Assembly: GCF_010500815.1 (NCBI RefSeq)
Contig: NZ_JAAAMG010000002.1
Span: 197,730-261,729, forward strand
Source: Jiella pacifica
GTDB lineage: Bacteria > Pseudomonadota > Alphaproteobacteria > Rhizobiales > Rhizobiaceae
Length of the DNA stretch: 64,000 bases
Direction of reading: 5' to 3'
In this document: positions 49,344 through 64,000 of the stretch, piece after piece
How the letters are laid out: each line of letters opens with the position of its first letter
Position numbering within the stretch: position 1 is the stretch's first letter
Notes under the pieces: model-generated
Told to the model about the DNA's origin: nothing
The model's input: only the letters and a program-made list of their open reading frames with translations
Database searches by the model: none
Translations under genes and position numbers: made by a program

Positions 49344-51134
49344 CTAGACCAGCACCCGGTCCTTCGCGTCGATCGCCTTGGCGACGGCCTCATCGGTCGC
49401 CTCTTCCGGCAGCAGGATCTCGTTGTGCGCCTTGCCCGACGGAATCATCGGGAAGCAGTTGGCAAGGTTCGCGACCCGGCAATCGAACAGCACCGGCGCA
49501 TCGACCTCCAGCATCTCGGCGATTGCATCGTCGAGATCGCCGGGTTTCTCGCAGCGCAAGCCGACCGCCCCATAGGCCTCGGCGAGCTTGACGAAGTCCG
49601 GCAGCGCCTCGGTATAGGAATGCGACAGCCGGTTACCGTGGAGCAGCTGCTGCCACTGGCGCACCATGCCCATATACTGGTTGTTGAGGATGAAGATCTT
49701 GGCGTTGGCCCGGTGCTGCACCGCCGTCGACATCTCCTGCATGTTCATCAGCACCGAGGCGTCGCCGGCGATGCAGACCGACAGCGCGTCAGGATGGGCG
49801 ATCGCAGCGCCGATGGCGGCCGGCAGGCCGTAGCCCATGGTACCGAGTCCGCCCGAGGTGAGCCAGCGGTTCGGAGCCTCGAAGCCGTAGAACTGCGCCG
49901 CCCACATCTGGTGCTGGCCGACTTCGGTGGAGACATAGGTTTCGCGATGCTTCGTCGCTTCGTAAAGCCTCTGGACGGCATATTGCGGCATGATGACGTC
50001 GTCATGCGGCTTGTAGGCCAGGCAATTGCGCGCCTTCCAGGCCTCGATCTCGCTCCACCAGGCAGTCATCGCCGTACGGTCGACCGACGCTCCGGCACTC
50101 TTCCATTCGGCGACAAGATCCTTCATGGCATGGGCGACGTCGGCGATGATCGGCAATTCGACGCGGACGTTCTTGTTGATCGAGGACGGGTCGATGTCGA
50201 TGTGGATCTTCCGCGAACCCGGCGAGAAGGCATCCAGCCGGCCGGTGATGCGGTCGTCGAACCTGGCACCGATGCACAGCATGACGTCGCAGCCATGCAT
50301 GGCGAGATTGGCCTCGTAGGTTCCGTGCATTCCCAGCATGCCGAGCCAGCTCTTCCCGGAAGCCGGATAGGCGCCGAGGCCCATCAGCGTCGAGGTGATC
50401 GGAAAACCGGTCATCTCGACGAATTCGCGCAGGAGGCGCGAGGCTTCCGGGCCCGAATTGACGACGCCGCCACCCGAATAGATCATTGGGCGCTTGGCGC
50501 CGGCCAGCATCTGGACGGCCGCAGCGATGCGCTCGTGCTCGGGAGAGAGCCGCGGACGGTAGCTTTCGTGGGTGCGGGAGGGCGGCGGCGGCGTGTACAT
50601 GCCGACCGCGAACTGGACGTCCTTCGGCACGTCGACGACGACCGGCCCCGGCCGCCCCGTCCGCGCAACGTGAAAGGCCTCGTGGAGAATCCGCGACAGG
50701 TCGTTCACGTCCTTGACCAGCCAGTTGTGCTTGGTGCAGGGCCGGGTGATGCCGACGGTGTCGCATTCCTGAAAGGCGTCGGAGCCGATCAGCGTCGTCG
50801 GAACCTGGCCTGAGATGCAGACGAGCGGGATCGAGTCCATCAGCGCGTCCTGCAGCGCCGTGACGGCATTCGTCGCGCCGGGACCCGAGGTGACGAGCAT
50901 CACGCCGGTCTTGCCGGTCGAGCGGGCATAGCCCTCCGCCGCATGGCCGGCGCCCTGCTCGTGCCGCACCAGGACGTGGCGGACTTCGTCCTGCTGGAAG
51001 AGCTCGTCATAGATCGGCAGCACGGCCCCGCCCGGATAGCCGAAGATGTCCGTGATCCCGTTGTCGATGAGTGCGCGGACCACCATCTCGGCGCCCGTCA
51101 TCTCCCGTGCTTCACTCTCGGCCTTGATATCCAT
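49344..51134 (-). CDS. ilvI: acetolactate synthase large (catalytic) subunit
   Basis: The thiamine diphosphate enzyme makes 2-acetolactate or 2-aceto-2-hydroxybutyrate from pyruvate. The 596-residue protein has [96 protein letters not shown] and [23 protein letters not shown]. Start at 51134 leaves room for the leader at 51205-51310. It is preceded by an attenuator. Confidence 0.96.
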
Positions 51135-51204
51135 CGCTTCGGTCTTTCTCGTTTCCGCCCAGTCTCGTCCCGGCGGACCATTCACAGAATTTCGGGCAAT
51201 AAAA

Positions 51205-51224
51205 AAGGGCCTCCAGGGGCCCTT
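51205..51224 (-). terminator. attenuator terminator in the ilvI leader
   Basis: Arms 51205-51211 and 51218-51224 form a perfect 7 bp GC-rich stem with a 6-base loop, followed on the minus strand by a run of six T. It lies between the leader peptide (51260-51310) and ilvI (51134) and is a standard rho-independent terminator. Confidence 0.85.
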
Positions 51225-51230
51225 CGTTTC

Positions 51231-51282
51231 GCGCACACGTGGCTATCGCCGGGCGGTCCTCAGACCGCCACGCGTGTGCGCC
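51231..51282 (-). promoter_or_regulatory. pause/anti-terminator hairpin in the ilvI leader
   Basis: Arms 51231-51239 and about 51273-51282 pair over 9 bp, with further pairing inside after a small bulge, including a 7 bp inner stem (51252-51258 with 51263-51269). The left side overlaps the end of the leader peptide. Ribosome position on the peptide would decide whether this or the terminator forms. Confidence 0.55.
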
Positions 51283-57174: not shown

Positions 57175-59337
57175 CTATTCCGCCGGCAATATGTTCGCCG
57201 CCGGCGCCAGGAGGGAGAGCGGCGTCTCGGCGGTGGCCGCCGCCGCCCCGCCCGGCGAAGCCGTTTCGCCCGTCAGCCCGGCAAAGCCCCGGTCGAGCCA
57301 GACCGCATCCGGAGCGGAACCGATTGCCAGCGCCCGCGCCGTCTCGCCGGGCTTCGGCACATGCGCGGCCATCGAAGCCCTGCCGCCGGCGACGTCGAAG
57401 CGCAGCCATCCGGTCCCGGTCTCGACGATGCCCTTCATCCGGTCCACTCCGCCGGCCTCACCGGCGACGACCTCGGCGAGGACGGCGCGAAGCGCGTCCG
57501 CATCGACGCGGCCGGAGAGCCGCCGGCTCCAGGACGAGAGGCCGAGGCCCGGCTCGTCGTGGTGGTGATGGTCGTGGTCGTGGTGGTCGTGCCCGTCATG
57601 ACGGGCGTGCTCATGGTGGTCGTGGTGCCCATGGCTGGCATGGTCGTGGCTGGCGTGGCTGATATGAGTGTGATGGTCGTGATCATGGCTGGCATCAGCG
57701 CCATGGGCGTGTTGGCCGCTCTCACGCGGAGCACCAAGCCCATGATCGTGCCGGTCGCCGCCGCGATGGCCGGCATGGTCGTGGGTGTGTGGCTCGTGAT
57801 CGTGAGGACGCTCCGCTGCAGCGGGGTGCACCTCGGCCCGATGACTGTGGGCGGGCTGCGCCACGGCCGTGTGGTCCGCCTTTCCATGGGGCTCACGCGC
57901 CTTTGCCGCCTGCGCCTGGTGGGCGCGTTCCTGCGCCAGCTCGTCGTCGAGAAGGTCGCGGGTCTCGCTCTGCCAGTGCGACAGAGCCATGGCCGGATCG
58001 ACACCGCCTTCGACGATGCCGTAGCGGGCCGTCAGGATCGTCGCGGCAGGGTTTAGCGCAACCAGCGTTTCGCGGACGGTCTCGATCTCGCCCGCCGAGA
58101 CCAGGTCGGTCTTGTTGAGGATGAAGACCGGGGCCAGCTTCGCCTGGATGCGGAAATATTCCGGCATGCGGGCGAAATCCCTCAGGAACGCGCCGGCATC
58201 GATCACAGTGTAGAGCCGGAGCGCCTTGGTGAGGCTCGCGATTTCCGGCTCGTGCAGGACGCGCAGCAGCGAAGCGACGTCGGCAACGCCCGACGGCTCG
58301 ATCATCACCCGCTGCGGCTTGATCTTGGCGACGACCTCGCGCAACTGCGCCGACAGATCCTTGCGCAGCGAGCAGCAGATGCAGCCGTTGGAAAGTTCGA
58401 CGACGTCGGCGCCCTGCCCCTCGAGCAGCGACCCGTCGATGCCGAGCTCGCCGAAATCGTTGACGAGGACCACGGTCTTCACGTTCGGATCGGCCTCAGA
58501 CAGCATGTGGCGCAGGGTCGTCGTCTTGCCGGCGCCGAGGAAGCCCACGACGATCTCGGCCTCGAAGGGCTGGCTGGTGCCGCGCGACTTCAGACCGGGC
58601 GACCACAGCGTCGCCGTCGGCATCGGCAGGACGAGCATCCAGTGTTCGAGGATCGCCAGGGCCATCAGGACGGCGAGGAAGGTGTAGCCGGCCTTCTCGA
58701 AGGCGGACGCCCCTTCCGCCATCGCGGCGACGACGAGAAGCGCAGTGATCACCGTCGAGATGGTGACGGAGAACGGGAACAGGAGGTTCATCGAGCGCTT
58801 GTTGAGGAAGCCTTTCAGGAACTCCAGATGCTCGGGCAAAAACTCCTCGTTGAGGTTTCGGACGCCGAAGAAGACGTTGAGCTTGGCGCTCTGATGCATC
58901 CACCACAGCACCATGAAGGTCCACATGCCGATCTGGTTCGGCGCGCCCCAGGTGAGCCAGACGACGAGGCCGGCCGCCGCAATGATCGCCAGCTCGTGAT
59001 AGAGACTGGTCTGCACGGCATGGACGAAGTGGGCAAAGCCCTTGCAGTTCTCCGGACAGGGCTGCTTCCGTGGGCCGGTGACGTAGCCCATGTAGAAGCT
59101 CATCTCCTGCCAGCCCCAGGCGAGCAGGCCGAAGGTGAAGGCCAGATAGGCGCCGGTGATGCTGGCGTCCTGCGCCGAGGTCTGCAGGCCGATCAGCGAG
59201 ACGGCGAAGATCGCCGTCGCCCCGACCATCGAATACTTGAACGTCCAGCGCGGCAGCCCGTCGAGATAGATGATCGCCACCGTCGAGGCCCACCAGACCA
59301 CGAGGGCGAACAGTGCCGGGTACAGATATTCGGTCAT
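57175..59337 (-). CDS. puhE: PuhE fused to a CobW/COG0523 metallochaperone GTPase
   Basis: One open frame of 720 codons joins two proteins. Residues 1 to about 257 are PuhE (DUF3623): TEYLYPALFALVVWW, GYVTGPRKQPCPENCKG, MWTFMVLWWMHQSAKLNVF, FGVRNLNEEFLPEHLEFLK, with several membrane helices. PuhE is a photosynthetic-complex assembly factor. From about 260 comes a COG0523 GTPase: Walker A VVGFLGAGKTTTLRH (GFLGAGKTT at 265-273), the metal motif GCICC (CxCC at 319-322), IEPSGVAD, NKTD at 408-411, then a His-rich region (about 485-593, many HDH/HHD units) and a CobW C-terminal domain. Start 59337 is the Met of MTEYLY. COG0523 proteins deliver Zn, Co or Fe. The fusion and the neighbour acsF suggest metal supply for bacteriochlorophyll enzymes; that is inference. 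Confidence 0.92.
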   Translation of the reverse strand: MTEYLYPALFALVVWWASTVAIIYLDGLPRWTFKYSMVGATAIFAVSLIGLQTSAQDASITGAYLAFTFGLLAWGWQEMSFYMGYVTGPRKQPCPENCKGFAHFVHAVQTSLYHELAIIAAAGLVVWLTWGAPNQIGMWTFMVLWWMHQSAKLNVFFGVRNLNEEFLPEHLEFLKGFLNKRSMNLLFPFSVTISTVITALLVVAAMAEGASAFEKAGYTFLAVLMALAILEHWMLVLPMPTATLWSPGLKSRGTSQPFEAEIVVGFLGAGKTTTLRHMLSEADPNVKTVVLVNDFGELGIDGSLLEGQGADVVELSNGCICCSLRKDLSAQLREVVAKIKPQRVMIEPSGVADVASLLRVLHEPEIASLTKALRLYTVIDAGAFLRDFARMPEYFRIQAKLAPVFILNKTDLVSAGEIETVRETLVALNPAATILTARYGIVEGGVDPAMALSHWQSETRDLLDDELAQERAHQAQAAKAREPHGKADHTAVAQPAHSHRAEVHPAAAERPHDHEPHTHDHAGHRGGDRHDHGLGAPRESGQHAHGADASHDHDHHTHISHASHDHASHGHHDHHEHARHDGHDHHDHDHHHHDEPGLGLSSWSRRLSGRVDADALRAVLAEVVAGEAGGVDRMKGIVETGTGWLRFDVAGGRASMAAHVPKPGETARALAIGSAPDAVWLDRGFAGLTGETASPGGAAAATAETPLSLLAPAANILPAE

Positions 59338-59408: not shown

Positions 59409-59550
59409 GTCGTCATCCCGGGCTTGACCCGGGATCCATTCCTCTGCCTCGCCAAGGCTCGCTCGACGTCGAAGCTCCATCGACCCACTGACCCGTCTCG
59501 GCAGTTTTGCCGATTTGGAATGGGTACCGGGTCAAGCCCGGGATGACGAC
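59409..59550. repeat. 142 bp inverted-repeat element in the acsF-puhE gap
   Basis: Arms 59409-59442 and 59517-59550 are 34 bp each and match at 31 positions as inverted repeats. Each arm has its own palindrome (CCCGGG...CCCGGG) and the sequence GTCATCC, like small palindromic elements known as RIME-type in Rhizobiales. The 74-base centre has no coding frame. No target-site duplication was seen. It lies in the 289-base gap (59338-59626) between acsF and the puhE fusion. Confidence 0.8.
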
Positions 59551-59626: not shown

Positions 59627-60718
59627 TCACCAGGCAGGAACGAGCTTGCTCTCCTTCGGGATCTCGTTCTTGATCACCGGCAGGGTGTAGAGCCGGGCGA
59701 AGGCGAGCGTCGCCGCCGCCTTGCCGCGCCAGACCTTGAGCTTGCCGGAAACGCCGCCCTGACGCGCCGCGGCGTCGATGTCGCGGCTGATCTTCAGGAG
59801 CCGTTCGAGCCCCGCCTTGAAGCGCGGGTTGTCGATGTCGAGCATCAGCGGGAAGACCTGCTTGGAAATCTCGTTGGTGATCCGGAAGACCTTGAAGCCG
59901 TATTCCGACGGGTCGAGCCCCAGCGCCTTGTGGAACTCCGGACGGGCGTGGTCGCGGACATACATCGTCGCGTAGACCGCCAGCAGGAAGAAGCGGATCC
60001 ACAGCTTGTTGCGGCCTTCCAGCGTGTGCCGCTCGGCCCGCATCAGCAAGGAAAACGCCTCGCCATGGCGGAACTCGTCGTTGCACCACTTCTCGAACCA
60101 CTTGAAGATCGGATGGATGCGACGCTCGGGGTGATGCTCGAGATGCCGGAAGATGGTGATGTAGCGGGCGTAGCCGATCTTCTCGGAGAGATAGGTGGCG
60201 TAGTAGATGAACTTCGGCTGGAAGAAGGTGTATTTCTTCTCCTTGGTCAGGAAGCCGAGATTGACGCCAATGCCGAATTCCTTCAGCGCGTCGTTGATGA
60301 AGCCGGCATGGCGGGCCTCGTCGCGGCTCATATAGGAGAAGAGCTCGCAGATGTCGGGGTTCGTCCCGCGCCGCTTCATCTCCTTGTAGAGGACGCAGCC
60401 GGAGAATTCCGCCGTCAGCGAGGAGACGAGGAAGTCGACGAACTCCTTGCGCAGCCCCTCCGGCAGATCCTCCAGCTCGATCTTGTCCCAGTTCTCGTCG
60501 CGCTTGAAATGACCCCGATTGGGATCCGCCTTCATCTCGGCGATCAGCGCGTCCCATTCGCGCCGGACACCCGAGACGTCGACCTTGTCGAGCTTGTCGA
60601 AATCGGTGGTGTAGAAGCGCGGCGTCAGCAGCGTGTCAGCTTGCGCGATCTTGGTGGTCTCGTTCGGCGCCTCGGCGCGGACGGGCGCAGCGCCCGAGAT
60701 TTTCGCGTGCGCGTTCAT
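59627..60718 (-). CDS. acsF: Mg-protoporphyrin IX monomethyl ester (oxidative) cyclase
   Basis: AcsF is the di-iron, O2-dependent enzyme that closes ring E of bacteriochlorophyll. The 363-residue protein has [32 protein letters not shown] (first diiron Glu-x-x-His motif), [21 protein letters not shown] (second Glu-x-x-His) and [21 protein letters not shown]. This is the oxygen-dependent form, as expected in aerobic phototrophs. The start overlaps the bciE stop by 4 bases. Confidence 0.97.
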
Positions 60719-61017
60719 AGCGTCGCCCTTTCCGAGAAGGAGAATTCGCAAAGTTCCATGAATTCGAAGTCGCCGGTCGCCCGCGTCCACTGGCGCTCCA
60801 GCCAGCCGGCCCGGCGGATCGTCGCGCGGCGCCTGAGATAGGCGGTTTCGCCATAGGGCACCTCGACGGGCTCCCCGTGCACCAGCACCTCGTCGCCCGG
60901 CTCGACGGTCACGCCGCCGTCGAAGCGCACATGGGCGTGCAGGCTCTCGAAGGTGTTGGAGACCTCGACGGTGCAGCAGACCTCCTCGGCCTTCTTCTTC
61001 AAAAATCGGTCGATCAT
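60715..61017 (-). CDS. bciE: probable BciE, AcsF cyclase subunit
   Basis: A 100-residue soluble protein lies between puhC and acsF, overlapping both by 4 bases. It has [56 protein letters not shown] and a C-terminal [13 protein letters not shown]. In alphaproteobacterial phototrophs a small gene just upstream of acsF (BciE) is needed for cyclase activity; length, position and operon fit this. I recall BciE by position more than by sequence, so the symbol is moderately sure. Confidence 0.7.
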
Positions 61018-61526
61018 TTCTCACCTCCCGTGATTTCGGCGCCTGCGGCCGGCAGCAGACCGACGAAAGCCCTCGCCTGCTTCTCGCCGAAGGCCCTCAG
61101 TTCCACCTGCTGGCTGGTCTCGGGGTCCTCGAGAACCAGACGCCCGTCCGACTTCAGGGCCAGGACGTAGGCCCCGCCGGCCGGAACGCCCTTGCGGACC
61201 CGATCCCGCGCCAGGTTGCGCAGAGCCTCGACCGCGAAGGCGCCCTCGCCCACTCCGACGGAGATCAGCGGCGCGCGGGTTCCGGCGTCGATAACGGCGG
61301 CCGAGCCGTCCTCGTGCTCGGCGAGCTGCAGGGCGCGGTGGGCTATCGTCCGCATCTCCGGCGTGTCGGCGAGACCAACGCCGGTGGTCCGGCCGGTCGC
61401 GATCGAGACGAGAGCGACGAGGGCGAGAGCCCCGGCCGACATCAAAATCGGCCGGGGGATCGGCTTTTCCGGATCCGGGCTGATCTTGATCGAACCGTTG
61501 CGGATGGCGGCGGCAAGAGCGCGCAT
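61014..61526 (-). CDS. puhC: photosynthetic complex assembly protein PuhC
   Basis: The 170-residue protein has a cytoplasmic N-terminus, one membrane helix ([19 protein letters not shown], about residues 28-46) and a periplasmic domain with ITGRTTG-like [29 protein letters not shown] and [14 protein letters not shown]. PuhC is needed for reaction-centre/LH1 assembly. The stop overlaps the bciE start by 4 bases. It follows puhB after 15 bases. Confidence 0.9.
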
Positions 61527-61541
61527 GTCCTCCGAACTCCC

Positions 61542-62222
61542 TTACATCGCGGCCGGCTGGGCGCCAGCAAATCCTGGCCTACCGGGTTCCGCGTTCGCCG
61601 GACGCGCCGCCGGCACGGCGCCGCGCTTGCCGCCTTGCGAAGCGGCGAGCGCGTCGGCGACGAGCCGCGCGGCTTCGGCCGCATTCGGCACGGCCCGCAG
61701 CATCGGCTCGGCCGAGCCGAACTTCCACGGCCGGGCATAGGGCCAGAGCTGGAAGTAGGACGGCCGACCCTTCTTCGGGATCGTCAGCGGAATGTCGCCC
61801 GTCCCGTCGGCATTGAGCTTGACCGCCGCATGGTCGACGTGAACCAGCGGAATGTTCAGCTGCGCCGGCAGGGCGACGCCGAAACGCATCACCAGCCGCC
61901 GGCTGGTCAGGGTAAAGCGTGTTGCCCGGGCCGTCAGAAAGGCCAGCAGCATGATCAGTCCGACGCCGACTCCGAGCGCCGGCAGGAGCGTCGCGGCATC
62001 CGCGAAGCCCGCCGCCCAGGAGCCGGTGTCGTGATGGGTCACGCCGATCTTCCAGACGGCGAAGGCGAGGAACCACGCGCCCACCAGCTTCAGCCGGTAG
62101 GCGCCGAGCGCGAGGCGCCACCAGTCGGGCCGCGCCTGCCAGAGGATCGTCTCGCCCTTGGGAAGTTCCTCCTCGGTGACGACAGGCTTGATGTCGTCGA
62201 ACTCTTCCATGTGGGTGCTCAT
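61542..62222 (-). CDS. puhB: photosynthetic complex assembly protein PuhB
   Basis: The 226-residue protein has ELPKGETILWQARPDWWRLA, three hydrophobic segments and a PH-like domain (ATRFTLTSRRLVMRFGVALPAQLNIPL). PuhB helps assemble the reaction-centre H subunit. The start (62222) overlaps the puhA stop by 4 bases. The C-terminal tail is Ala/Pro/Gly-rich. Confidence 0.92.
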   Translation of the reverse strand: MSTHMEEFDDIKPVVTEEELPKGETILWQARPDWWRLALGAYRLKLVGAWFLAFAVWKIGVTHHDTGSWAAGFADAATLLPALGVGVGLIMLLAFLTARATRFTLTSRRLVMRFGVALPAQLNIPLVHVDHAAVKLNADGTGDIPLTIPKKGRPSYFQLWPYARPWKFGSAEPMLRAVPNAAEAARLVADALAASQGGKRGAVPAARPANAEPGRPGFAGAQPAAM

Positions 62223-63004
62223 GACAGGGCATCCTCCAGGGGTGAGCCGTCATAGAAGGCGCCGCCGGCGAAATAGCCGTTCAGGCGATCCTCCTCGCGC
62301 ATGGTGATCTGGTCGGGATTGGCGAGGGCCGGAACGCGGGAGAATTGCGGCCGGGTCAGCGACGAGAAGCGGATGATGCCGCGGCCGGCCTTGATGTCGG
62401 CGAAGGCGAAGGGGGCAAGCAGGCGCCGTCCACCGCTCTCGACATTCGCCTCGATCTCCAGATAGCGCGGGAAATATTCGTGGGCGTTAATCCAGACGTC
62501 GACGATCTTGCCGACCTCCAGACCCTCGCGACTGACCACCGTCATGCCGACCGGATCGACGTCGGTCGACTCCAGCCGGTATTGCGGATGGTTGCGCATC
62601 GGCGTCAGCTTCAAGGAGCCGTCGACGGTCAGATCCGGCGTGTCGGCCTTCAACGCGTAGGATGCCGGGCCGATCCCGTCGACCAGCGGGTCCCCGGCCG
62701 GCATGATCGGCGAGCCGGGGAATTCATAGGCAGGGAAGGCGTTGAGTTCGCGGGGGACCTCGCCGCGCGGGACACGGGTCTCGCCGCCATGCATCAGCCG
62801 GAAGACCTTCGGCGAGGGCATGGGCGGAAAGCCGACCACCTGGACCCGGCCGCCGGTCCCGGCAGTCCGGTCGCTCTCCAGCGGATAACCTTCCCGCTTG
62901 TCCTCGCCGCGCAGATAGTAGACGAGGCCGAGAAAGAAGAGGAAGAACAGAATGACGAGCAGCAGGGGGATATCGAGCTGCTCCGTGAGGGCATAGGCTG
63001 GCAA
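62219..63004 (-). CDS. puhA: photosynthetic reaction centre H subunit
   Basis: PuhA is the H subunit of the type 2 reaction centre. The protein has one membrane helix near the N-terminus (IPLLLVILFFLFFLGLVYYL), then GEDKREGYPLESDR, the family signature, FRLMHGGETRVPRGE, and a PRC-barrel domain (VVSREGLEVGKIVDVWINAHEYFPRYLEIE). TTG 63004 is preferred as start (product LPAYALTEQLD..., AGGGAG 8 bases upstream); a GTG at 63013 is the alternative. About 261 residues, typical. Confidence 0.94.
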   Translation of the reverse strand: MPAYALTEQLDIPLLLVILFFLFFLGLVYYLRGEDKREGYPLESDRTAGTGGRVQVVGFPPMPSPKVFRLMHGGETRVPRGEVPRELNAFPAYEFPGSPIMPAGDPLVDGIGPASYALKADTPDLTVDGSLKLTPMRNHPQYRLESTDVDPVGMTVVSREGLEVGKIVDVWINAHEYFPRYLEIEANVESGGRRLLAPFAFADIKAGRGIIRFSSLTRPQFSRVPALANPDQITMREEDRLNGYFAGGAFYDGSPLEDALS

Positions 63005-63032
63005 GACACGCACTCCCTTCGCTTGGGATTTT

Positions 63033-64000
63033 CTAGTTCGGCAGATCTGCAAGGCCGAAGCGCGCCGGCGGCGCAGCCCTCGGCTCGATACGACGCGGTT
63101 TGACGAGCGGCCCGAGGCAGGCGAGCGCCCCGAAAACGAGAAGGATCTCGACGAGATAGACGATGCTGTAGCCGCTGGCCGGGCTCTGAAAGGCCGAGCC
63201 GAGCCAGCCGGCATCGGCAAGACCGGTGACGGCATCCCGCACCAGGCCGCCGACGGCGACGGCGACACCGAGCGCCATCGCCTGGACCGCGCTCCAGGCG
63301 CCGAGCGCCAGGCCCCCGCGGCCGTCGCTGACCATCGCCATGGCGGCGATCAGCATGGAGACGGCAAAGAGGCCGCTGCCGAGCCCGATCATCACGGTGC
63401 CGGCCGAAAAGACGCCGACCGAGCCGAAGGGAGCGGCCATGATCACCGCGGCAAAACCCGGCAGGCCGAGCATCAGCCCGATCCCGGCGACGACGTAGGG
63501 ATTGCCGCCGCGGCTCATGAGCCGGGCCGAAATGAAGTAGCCGACGAGGCTTCCGGTGGCGAACAGCGCCGTCAGGAGCGTGGTCGAACCGACCCCCATG
63601 TGCAGCACCGAGCCGCCATAGGGTTCGAGCAGAACGTCCTGCATGCCGAAGGCGGCGGTGCCGACCGCAAGCGCCACAAGCAGCCGGTCGAGACCCTTCT
63701 GCTGGCGGAGCGCCTTCAGCGCCGCGCGGAACGGCTCCTTCGGCTGGCCTCCCGGCTGGATGTCCCGGCGCCGCGGCTCCTGCTTCCAGATGGCGATGCA
63801 GGTCAGCGTGATGGTGACGAGCGCCGAGCCCTGCAGAACCTGGATGAGACGCAGGGTCGAGAAGTCCGCCAGAAGCCGCCCGATCACGATCGCGCCGACG
63901 AACATGCCGACGATCAGCATGGTGTAGAGCATGGCGACGACCCGCGGGCGCTTCTCCGGCGGCGCGAGGTCGGTAGCAAGCGCGAGACCGGCCGTCTGCA
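63033..64000 (-). CDS. lhaA: light-harvesting 1 assembly protein LhaA/PucC family, 5' end outside the window
   Basis: The frame is open to the window edge, with QTAGLALATDLAPPEKRPRVVAM before the first internal Met (63932). The visible about 322 residues include several membrane helices of the PucC/LhaA major-facilitator-like family, with ATDLAPPEKRPRVV and DVLLEPYGGSVLHM as family signatures. LhaA and PucC help insert light-harvesting complexes. It precedes puhA by 28 bases, the usual position for lhaA. The start is not visible. Confidence 0.9.
   Translation of the reverse strand, partial: QTAGLALATDLAPPEKRPRVVAMLYTMLIVGMFVGAIVIGRLLADFSTLRLIQVLQGSALVTITLTCIAIWKQEPRRRDIQPGGQPKEPFRAALKALRQQKGLDRLLVALAVGTAAFGMQDVLLEPYGGSVLHMGVGSTTLLTALFATGSLVGYFISARLMSRGGNPYVVAGIGLMLGLPGFAAVIMAAPFGSVGVFSAGTVMIGLGSGLFAVSMLIAAMAMVSDGRGGLALGAWSAVQAMALGVAVAVGGLVRDAVTGLADAGWLGSAFQSPASGYSIVYLVEILLVFGALACLGPLVKPRRIEPRAAPPARFGLADLPN

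Follow-up and report, generated by a model that had tools for sequence, protein, structure and literature searches.

Comparative genomics of a conserved fusion of the photosynthesis protein PuhE with a COG0523-type GTPase in Jiella pacifica and other bacteria

In the window analysed here, a stretch of 64,000 nucleotides from Jiella pacifica, one uninterrupted minus-strand frame in the puh operon, downstream of acsF (57175..59337; ATG at 59337, stop at 57175–57177; 720 amino acids), joins the membrane protein PuhE to a GTPase of the COG0523 family. As judged by comparison of genome sequences, the fusion is a real and conserved architecture and is not rare; it unites two known families and is undescribed as far as searches of open PMC papers reach. 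The reading we favour, and to which we give somewhat better than an even chance, is that it is a membrane-tethered metallochaperone of the photosynthesis operon, whose client would be either AcsF or a putative metal site of PuhE itself.

The membrane half (residues 1–253; 58579..59337, minus strand) is a PuhE/DUF3623 domain scoring over curated cut-offs along the whole model (PF12291, covering residues 1–253 with a model of 256 positions, E = 1.3e-106, 356 bits against a cut-off of 27; TIGR03055, 319.7 bits against 164.05), and seven predicted membrane helices in an AF2 model together with the position in the puh–acsF operon agree with this assignment. The GTPase domain (residues 258–444; 58006..58566, minus strand) belongs to COG0523/G3E by its cobW nucleotide-binding domain (PF02492 at residues 262–435, E = 2.9e-42, 144.7 bits against 20.7), the Walker A motif GFLGAGKT (residues 265–272; 58522..58545), the CICC metal-site motif of the CxCC type (residues 319–322; 58372..58383), lying within NGCICC, the guanine-specificity motif NKTD (residues 408–411; 58105..58116) and a CobW_C domain. 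Domain matches and motifs thus bear out the first-pass annotation, made from the letters of the window, in joining PuhE to a full COG0523 GTPase in a single frame; the His/Asp-rich segment that it described is also present, but with 152 residues (445–596; 57550..58005, minus strand), 40 of them His and 29 Asp or Glu, it is longer than the roughly 110 given there, where the minus strand of the frame was also left unmentioned. The CobW_C domain (residues 597–686; 57280..57549, minus strand) matches a profile of fused proteins and, when the C-terminus is scanned alone, PF07683 (2.2e-6, 27.9 bits against 22); it was not listed at E 0.001 when the whole protein was scanned with Pfam, and the fusion was not among the five matches of a genome search with the PF07683 model.

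Within COG0523, whose members YjiA, CobW and ZigA share with the fusion the Walker A, CxCC and NKxD motifs, the His-rich linker and CobW_C, the fused GTPase falls far below the equivalog cut-offs for CobW (TIGR02475, 95.9 bits against 332.1), ZigA (NF038288, 97.7 against 600) and PRK11537 (83.1 against 361). Its nearest solved relative is Escherichia coli YjiA, the only protein in the PDB related by sequence at E 0.01 (E = 1.9e-21), and the modelled domain aligns to HypB with zinc (Z 15.2), UreG with nickel (14.6) and YjiA (13.1). Many SRP-type GTPases score like HypB and UreG in the fold search, so the fold alone is no argument for metal. The mutual arrangement of PuhE and GTPase is predicted with low confidence (pTM 0.63). 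YjiA, CobW and ZigA are soluble, stand-alone proteins, whereas the fused GTPase follows the seven membrane helices of PuhE in one chain and has its own branch in the GTPase tree.

On the same strand, the order puhA (reaction centre H subunit; 62219..63109; Pfam, TIGR01150), puhB (61542..62222; NF040894), puhC (61014..61526; TIGR03054), a 100-residue frame without Pfam or NCBIfam match that is probably bciE by position (60715..61017) and acsF (59627..60718; TIGR02029, 505 bits) leads to the fusion gene, and the neighbouring acsF is as first annotated. According to the passages available, puhBC–bciE–acsF–puhE is an ordinary operon order (PMC10576062) and the AcsF of Alphaproteobacteria requires BciE (PMC7319587). 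Between acsF and puhE lies an inverted-repeat element of about 135 bp (59412–59437, plus; 59522–59547, minus); its 23-base arm is present at 28 genomic sites with at most 2 mismatches (a control pattern at 0), 18 of which form nine facing pairs about 105–115 apart, as in a dispersed palindromic repeat. Near the photosynthesis operon, 49344–51236 (minus strand) encodes a putative thiamine-diphosphate enzyme, acetolactate-synthase-like by eye.

How widespread the fusion is, a question raised with the first-pass annotation, is answered by 39 distinct loci, one of them probably contamination, in all of which the junction lies at the same place and is 4–7 residues long. PuhE occurs in 26 of 199 genomes of the window's own family, nine of which, from four genera, carry the fusion with the junction at the same place; among frames long enough to hold a tail, none in this family ends in CobW_C only. 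Across the order, 75 of 397 genomes have PuhE (two fused, both of the window's genus, and eight with CobW_C only), and in the family of genome G913, 90 of 299 match at E 1e-55: 22 have both halves in a single frame (in one of them the contig ends within the GTPase), G1034 has the halves on two contigs, 10 are CobW_C-only, G988 is cut by a contig end and 56 have neither. Reading covered, in the two family samples and the order sample, all complete matches whose open frame reached 339 residues, while shorter frames, too short for the tail, were judged by length; among fragmentary matches it extended to G561, with G229 and G300 left out. A class sample (385 genomes, few candidates scored per genome) held at least 27 genomes with a PuhE match, at least 3 of them fused, and a phylum sample held 31 in 398, with 3 fused, all counted already in the other samples, and 3 outside the class, all unfused; the family, order, class and phylum samples overlap.

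Among the matches listed, all 12 loci in named genomes that are at least 45% identical over a long stretch of the GTPase are fused: Jiella avicenniae, J. mangrovi, Fulvimarina manganoxydans, F. endophytica, Caenispirillum salinarum, Rhodovibrio sodomensis, Lichenicoccus roseus, and MAGs of Croceicoccus, Acidocella (L040), a Rhodospirillales bacterium and two unplaced Proteobacteria. The placed carriers fall into four NCBI orders of Alphaproteobacteria (Hyphomicrobiales, Rhodospirillales, Acetobacterales and Sphingomonadales). An assembly error at the joint near 58560, the concern attached to the original proposal, can be dismissed, because the same-place junction recurs across genomes (9/26 in the family, 12/12 named loci among the matches listed). 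A locus on a 6.9-kb contig of Kouleothrix aurantiaca COM-B (Chloroflexota; L070:5824-6891) encodes a fusion that the contig end truncates and that has 70% identity to residues 1–73 of the GTPase query; probable contamination, or else transfer, would explain it. G124, G022 and G193, all of the window's family, have a second PuhE match beside the fused copy (frames of 272, 255 and 122 residues; the G193 match is partial), and G1014 has two fused copies (L168, L275).

PuhE was found in three architectures: of 160 distinct loci read, which are not a random sample, 103 were assigned to PuhE alone, 39 to PuhE–GTPase (in L174 and L070 the contig stops short of the tail) and 18 to PuhE followed by CobW_C without the GTPase. 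PuhE alone resembles the fusion in its full-length domain match, seven membrane helices and operon place after acsF, but its frame ends at most 62 residues past the domain in 95 of the 103 loci (among which L178, the contig-cut half of G1034, is probably fused), against 467 further residues in the fusion. A profile made solely from the first nine fused proteins matches all 18 CobW_C-only tails (E 7e-9 or better), and a more sensitive profile finds no such tail in the 103 PuhE-alone loci; of seven tails compared with Pfam, six match PF07683 with E no higher than 1, L192, L132 and L230 among them reaching or exceeding its cut-off, and L136 has no match. In L192 a His-rich stretch is kept between PuhE and CobW_C without the GTPase, which is what deletion of the GTPase would leave.

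Fission into a free-standing GTPase was considered and rejected for the matches listed, where 13 of 80 loci are at least 45% identical to the GTPase and all 13 are fused to PuhE (the 12 above and L070, with 73 residues matched). No free-standing copy of the fused GTPase was found among the loci listed nor among the 299 genomes of one family, where at most four candidates were scored per genome and, down to E 1e-55, all listed matches but the contig-split half in G1034 lie within PuhE frames; both searches would miss diverged or pattern-less copies.

Strong purifying selection acts on the GTPase of the fusion: across seven pairs of sequences omega was 0.03–0.15 for the GTPase, 0.07–0.15 for PuhE and 0.15–0.48 for CobW_C; for the linker, computable in three pairs, it was 0.27–0.45. 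In a GTPase tree that also holds 72 other COG0523 domains, a single branch (SH-aLRT 96) unites 37 fused copies with the contig-split part of a 38th; the tree carries a warning of long branches meeting that includes the base of this branch and L139. In a quick PuhE tree (159 rows, SH-aLRT only) 38 fusions lie within one group of 60 rows, whose support of 92 is below the starred level of 95 and which has 22 rows classed unfused, of which 21 lack the GTPase and one, L178, is cut by its contig end; the CobW_C-only forms lie outside this group, at several places. The distribution of architectures requires 11 changes on the tree, compared with 50.7 in shuffles. Simply read, the trees suggest one fusion with a whole COG0523 protein, predating the present group of fusions, after which the GTPase was lost repeatedly and CobW_C later, a reading that has to allow for weak deep branches and possible gene transfer. 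With 21 of the 60 rows lacking the GTPase and 18 loci keeping only CobW_C, the GTPase is dispensable, which counts against the favoured reading.

The motifs G[FY]LGAGKT, CICC and NKxD are kept in 33 of 36 aligned fused rows. The remaining three, L175–L177, have lost CICC and have at most 2 His in the linker; their NDF and EPSG stretches are partly altered, with GAGKT and NKxD kept. The linker is usually rich in His (at least 8 in 32 of the 37 fused proteins not cut before it; the exceptions are L034, L139, L175, L176 and L177); the His run is absent in 3/3 copies without CxCC versus 2/34 others (Fisher 0.0013). L175 and L176 share one genus, which makes these about two independent joint losses, and in this pair the part after PuhE has a higher omega (0.34) than PuhE (0.16). 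The joint loss of CxCC and His-rich run in all three decayed copies strengthens the case for a role in metal handling; L034 and L139, with an intact GTPase and no His run, indicate that the GTPase can do without the run. Also against the favoured reading, COG0523 motifs do not tell which metal is bound, and His-rich tails may serve storage instead of delivery.

The available text on DUF3623 gives seven transmembrane segments (PMC12423673), and the AF2 model of PuhE (mean pLDDT 93.3, pTM 0.90) has seven long helices and a terminal helix. Lys/Arg residues average 3.59 in loop 3, 3.75 in loop 5 and 1.80 at the C-terminus, against 0.05–0.22 in loops 2, 4 and 6, so that by the positive-inside rule, applied to the predicted structure, loops 3 and 5 and the C-terminus are predicted to be cytosolic. 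Five residues are nearly invariant in 122 PuhE rows (E78 in 119, H114 in 121, E115 in 122, E231 in 122 and H232 in 121), and helix limits in the model place E78, H114–E115 and E231–H232 near the predicted cytosolic ends of helices 3, 4 and 7, where, we suggest, they may form a metal site. These residues are kept in fused and unfused proteins alike, and the putative site therefore does not need the fused GTPase. Foldseek returned no PDB match to the PuhE fold at E 0.001 or better, a profile search no PDB relative at E 1, and VIA-align a best Z of 6.1, within its stated range of chance likeness; the absence of matches does not show that the fold is new.

On the favoured reading, that of a membrane-tethered metallochaperone, PuhE would anchor the GTPase, its putatively metal-buffering His-rich tail and CobW_C at the cytosolic membrane face, the place of assembly of bacteriochlorophyll enzymes and photocomplexes; a divalent metal (Zn, Fe, Mn or Co) would be gathered by the tail, the CxCC site would bind it, and a GTP cycle would release the metal to a client on the membrane side, for which the candidates are the diiron cyclase AcsF, encoded next door, and the nearly invariant Glu/His residues of PuhE. 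Such a machine had been proposed in the first-pass annotation; of that proposal, the genuine fusion with intact GTPase and CxCC motifs beside acsF, and the predicted cytosolic side of the GTPase, are supported, and AcsF as the specific client is not. AcsF is present in 32/32 genomes with the fusion and also in 17/18 with PuhE–CobW_C and 26/30 with PuhE only (the latter hand-picked, mostly as tree neighbours, and none of the samples random), and acsF–puhE adjacency is the ordinary order; since 43/48 unfused genomes have AcsF too, the co-occurrence is compatible with a link to the cyclase, is not distinctive and does not establish it, nor does it tell such a link from a role at PuhE itself. Cobalamin-dependent steps, also put forward at first, were rejected as a general client: BchE occurs in only 9/32 fused genomes (in one, G680, in two pieces below the cut-off), compared with 11/18 with PuhE–CobW_C and 12/30 with PuhE only, again not distinctive, so that a cobalamin or BchE role is not general. 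The Acidocella MAG (L040) prompts the speculative idea of a link to zinc-bacteriochlorophyll.

As a special case of the favoured reading, PuhE might itself be a membrane metalloprotein with the fused GTPase as its dedicated metal inserter, a tentative possibility to which the five Glu/His positions, conserved in 119–122 of 122 rows near the predicted cytosolic ends of three helices, lend some weight; against it, PuhE proteins without any GTPase keep these residues, and no Foldseek match at E 0.001 or better points to a metal enzyme. We would extend this with similar reserve: PuhE could be an unrecognised metalloprotein of photocomplex assembly, and lineages that do not need the inserter may have shed the metal motif, the GTPase and CobW_C in turn.

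Alternatively, GTPase, His-rich tail and CobW_C could act as a metal sensor that tunes the bacteriochlorophyll output of PuhE, as a brake and not as a delivery device. The absence of the GTPase where CobW_C is kept would suit an accessory regulatory module, CobW_C-only tails are under some constraint (omega 0.07–0.40 in eight pairs, compared with 0.07–0.31 for PuhE), and the title of Aklujkar et al. (2005) can be cited in its favour. We nevertheless consider it unlikely, because CxCC combined with a GTP cycle is how delivery proteins in COG0523 are built. By the title of PMC7895991, CobW acquires cobalt for B12.

In three loci (L187 of G329, L188 of G219 and L112/L274 of G361) no stop separates PuhE from a HemA-like protein in the same frame, by reading alone a putative 5-aminolevulinate synthase; two are of one genus, of which a third member, L190, has a stop, and the joining may be another type of PuhE fusion or reflect an overlapping start. 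Neighbours can evidently come to share a frame, as these loci (L112, L187, L188) illustrate, but an assembly or frameshift artefact was rejected, and it or a mere in-frame neighbourhood without joint function is extremely improbable for PuhE–GTPase, contradicted as it is by the same-place junction of 4–7 residues in 39 loci, purifying selection on both PuhE and GTPase, and the single GTPase clade.

In having a cytosolic G domain in one chain with a membrane domain, in the context of metal handling, the fusion recalls FeoB, reportedly a membrane protein that contains its own G protein (Marlovits et al. 2002). In FeoB, an iron transporter, the G domain is N-terminal, PuhE is not known as a transporter, and the likeness drawn here is one of architecture. 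The first annotation knew of no description of the PuhE–GTPase fusion, and searches of open PMC papers (preprints outside their scope) found none; the main text of a large COG0523 survey has none of the terms photosynth-, fused, fusion or chlorophyll (PMC2770081). The literature passages available give PuhE a mutant phenotype but no biochemical function. Nature provides a series of intact, metal-dead, GTPase-less and bare versions of PuhE, and this series and the conserved covalent link to a metallochaperone GTPase suggest that a metal step may belong to the work of PuhE. A long-obscure assembly factor thereby gains a testable function, with residues and strains named, and, if true, metal supply would be directly and physically coupled to the building of the photosynthetic apparatus.
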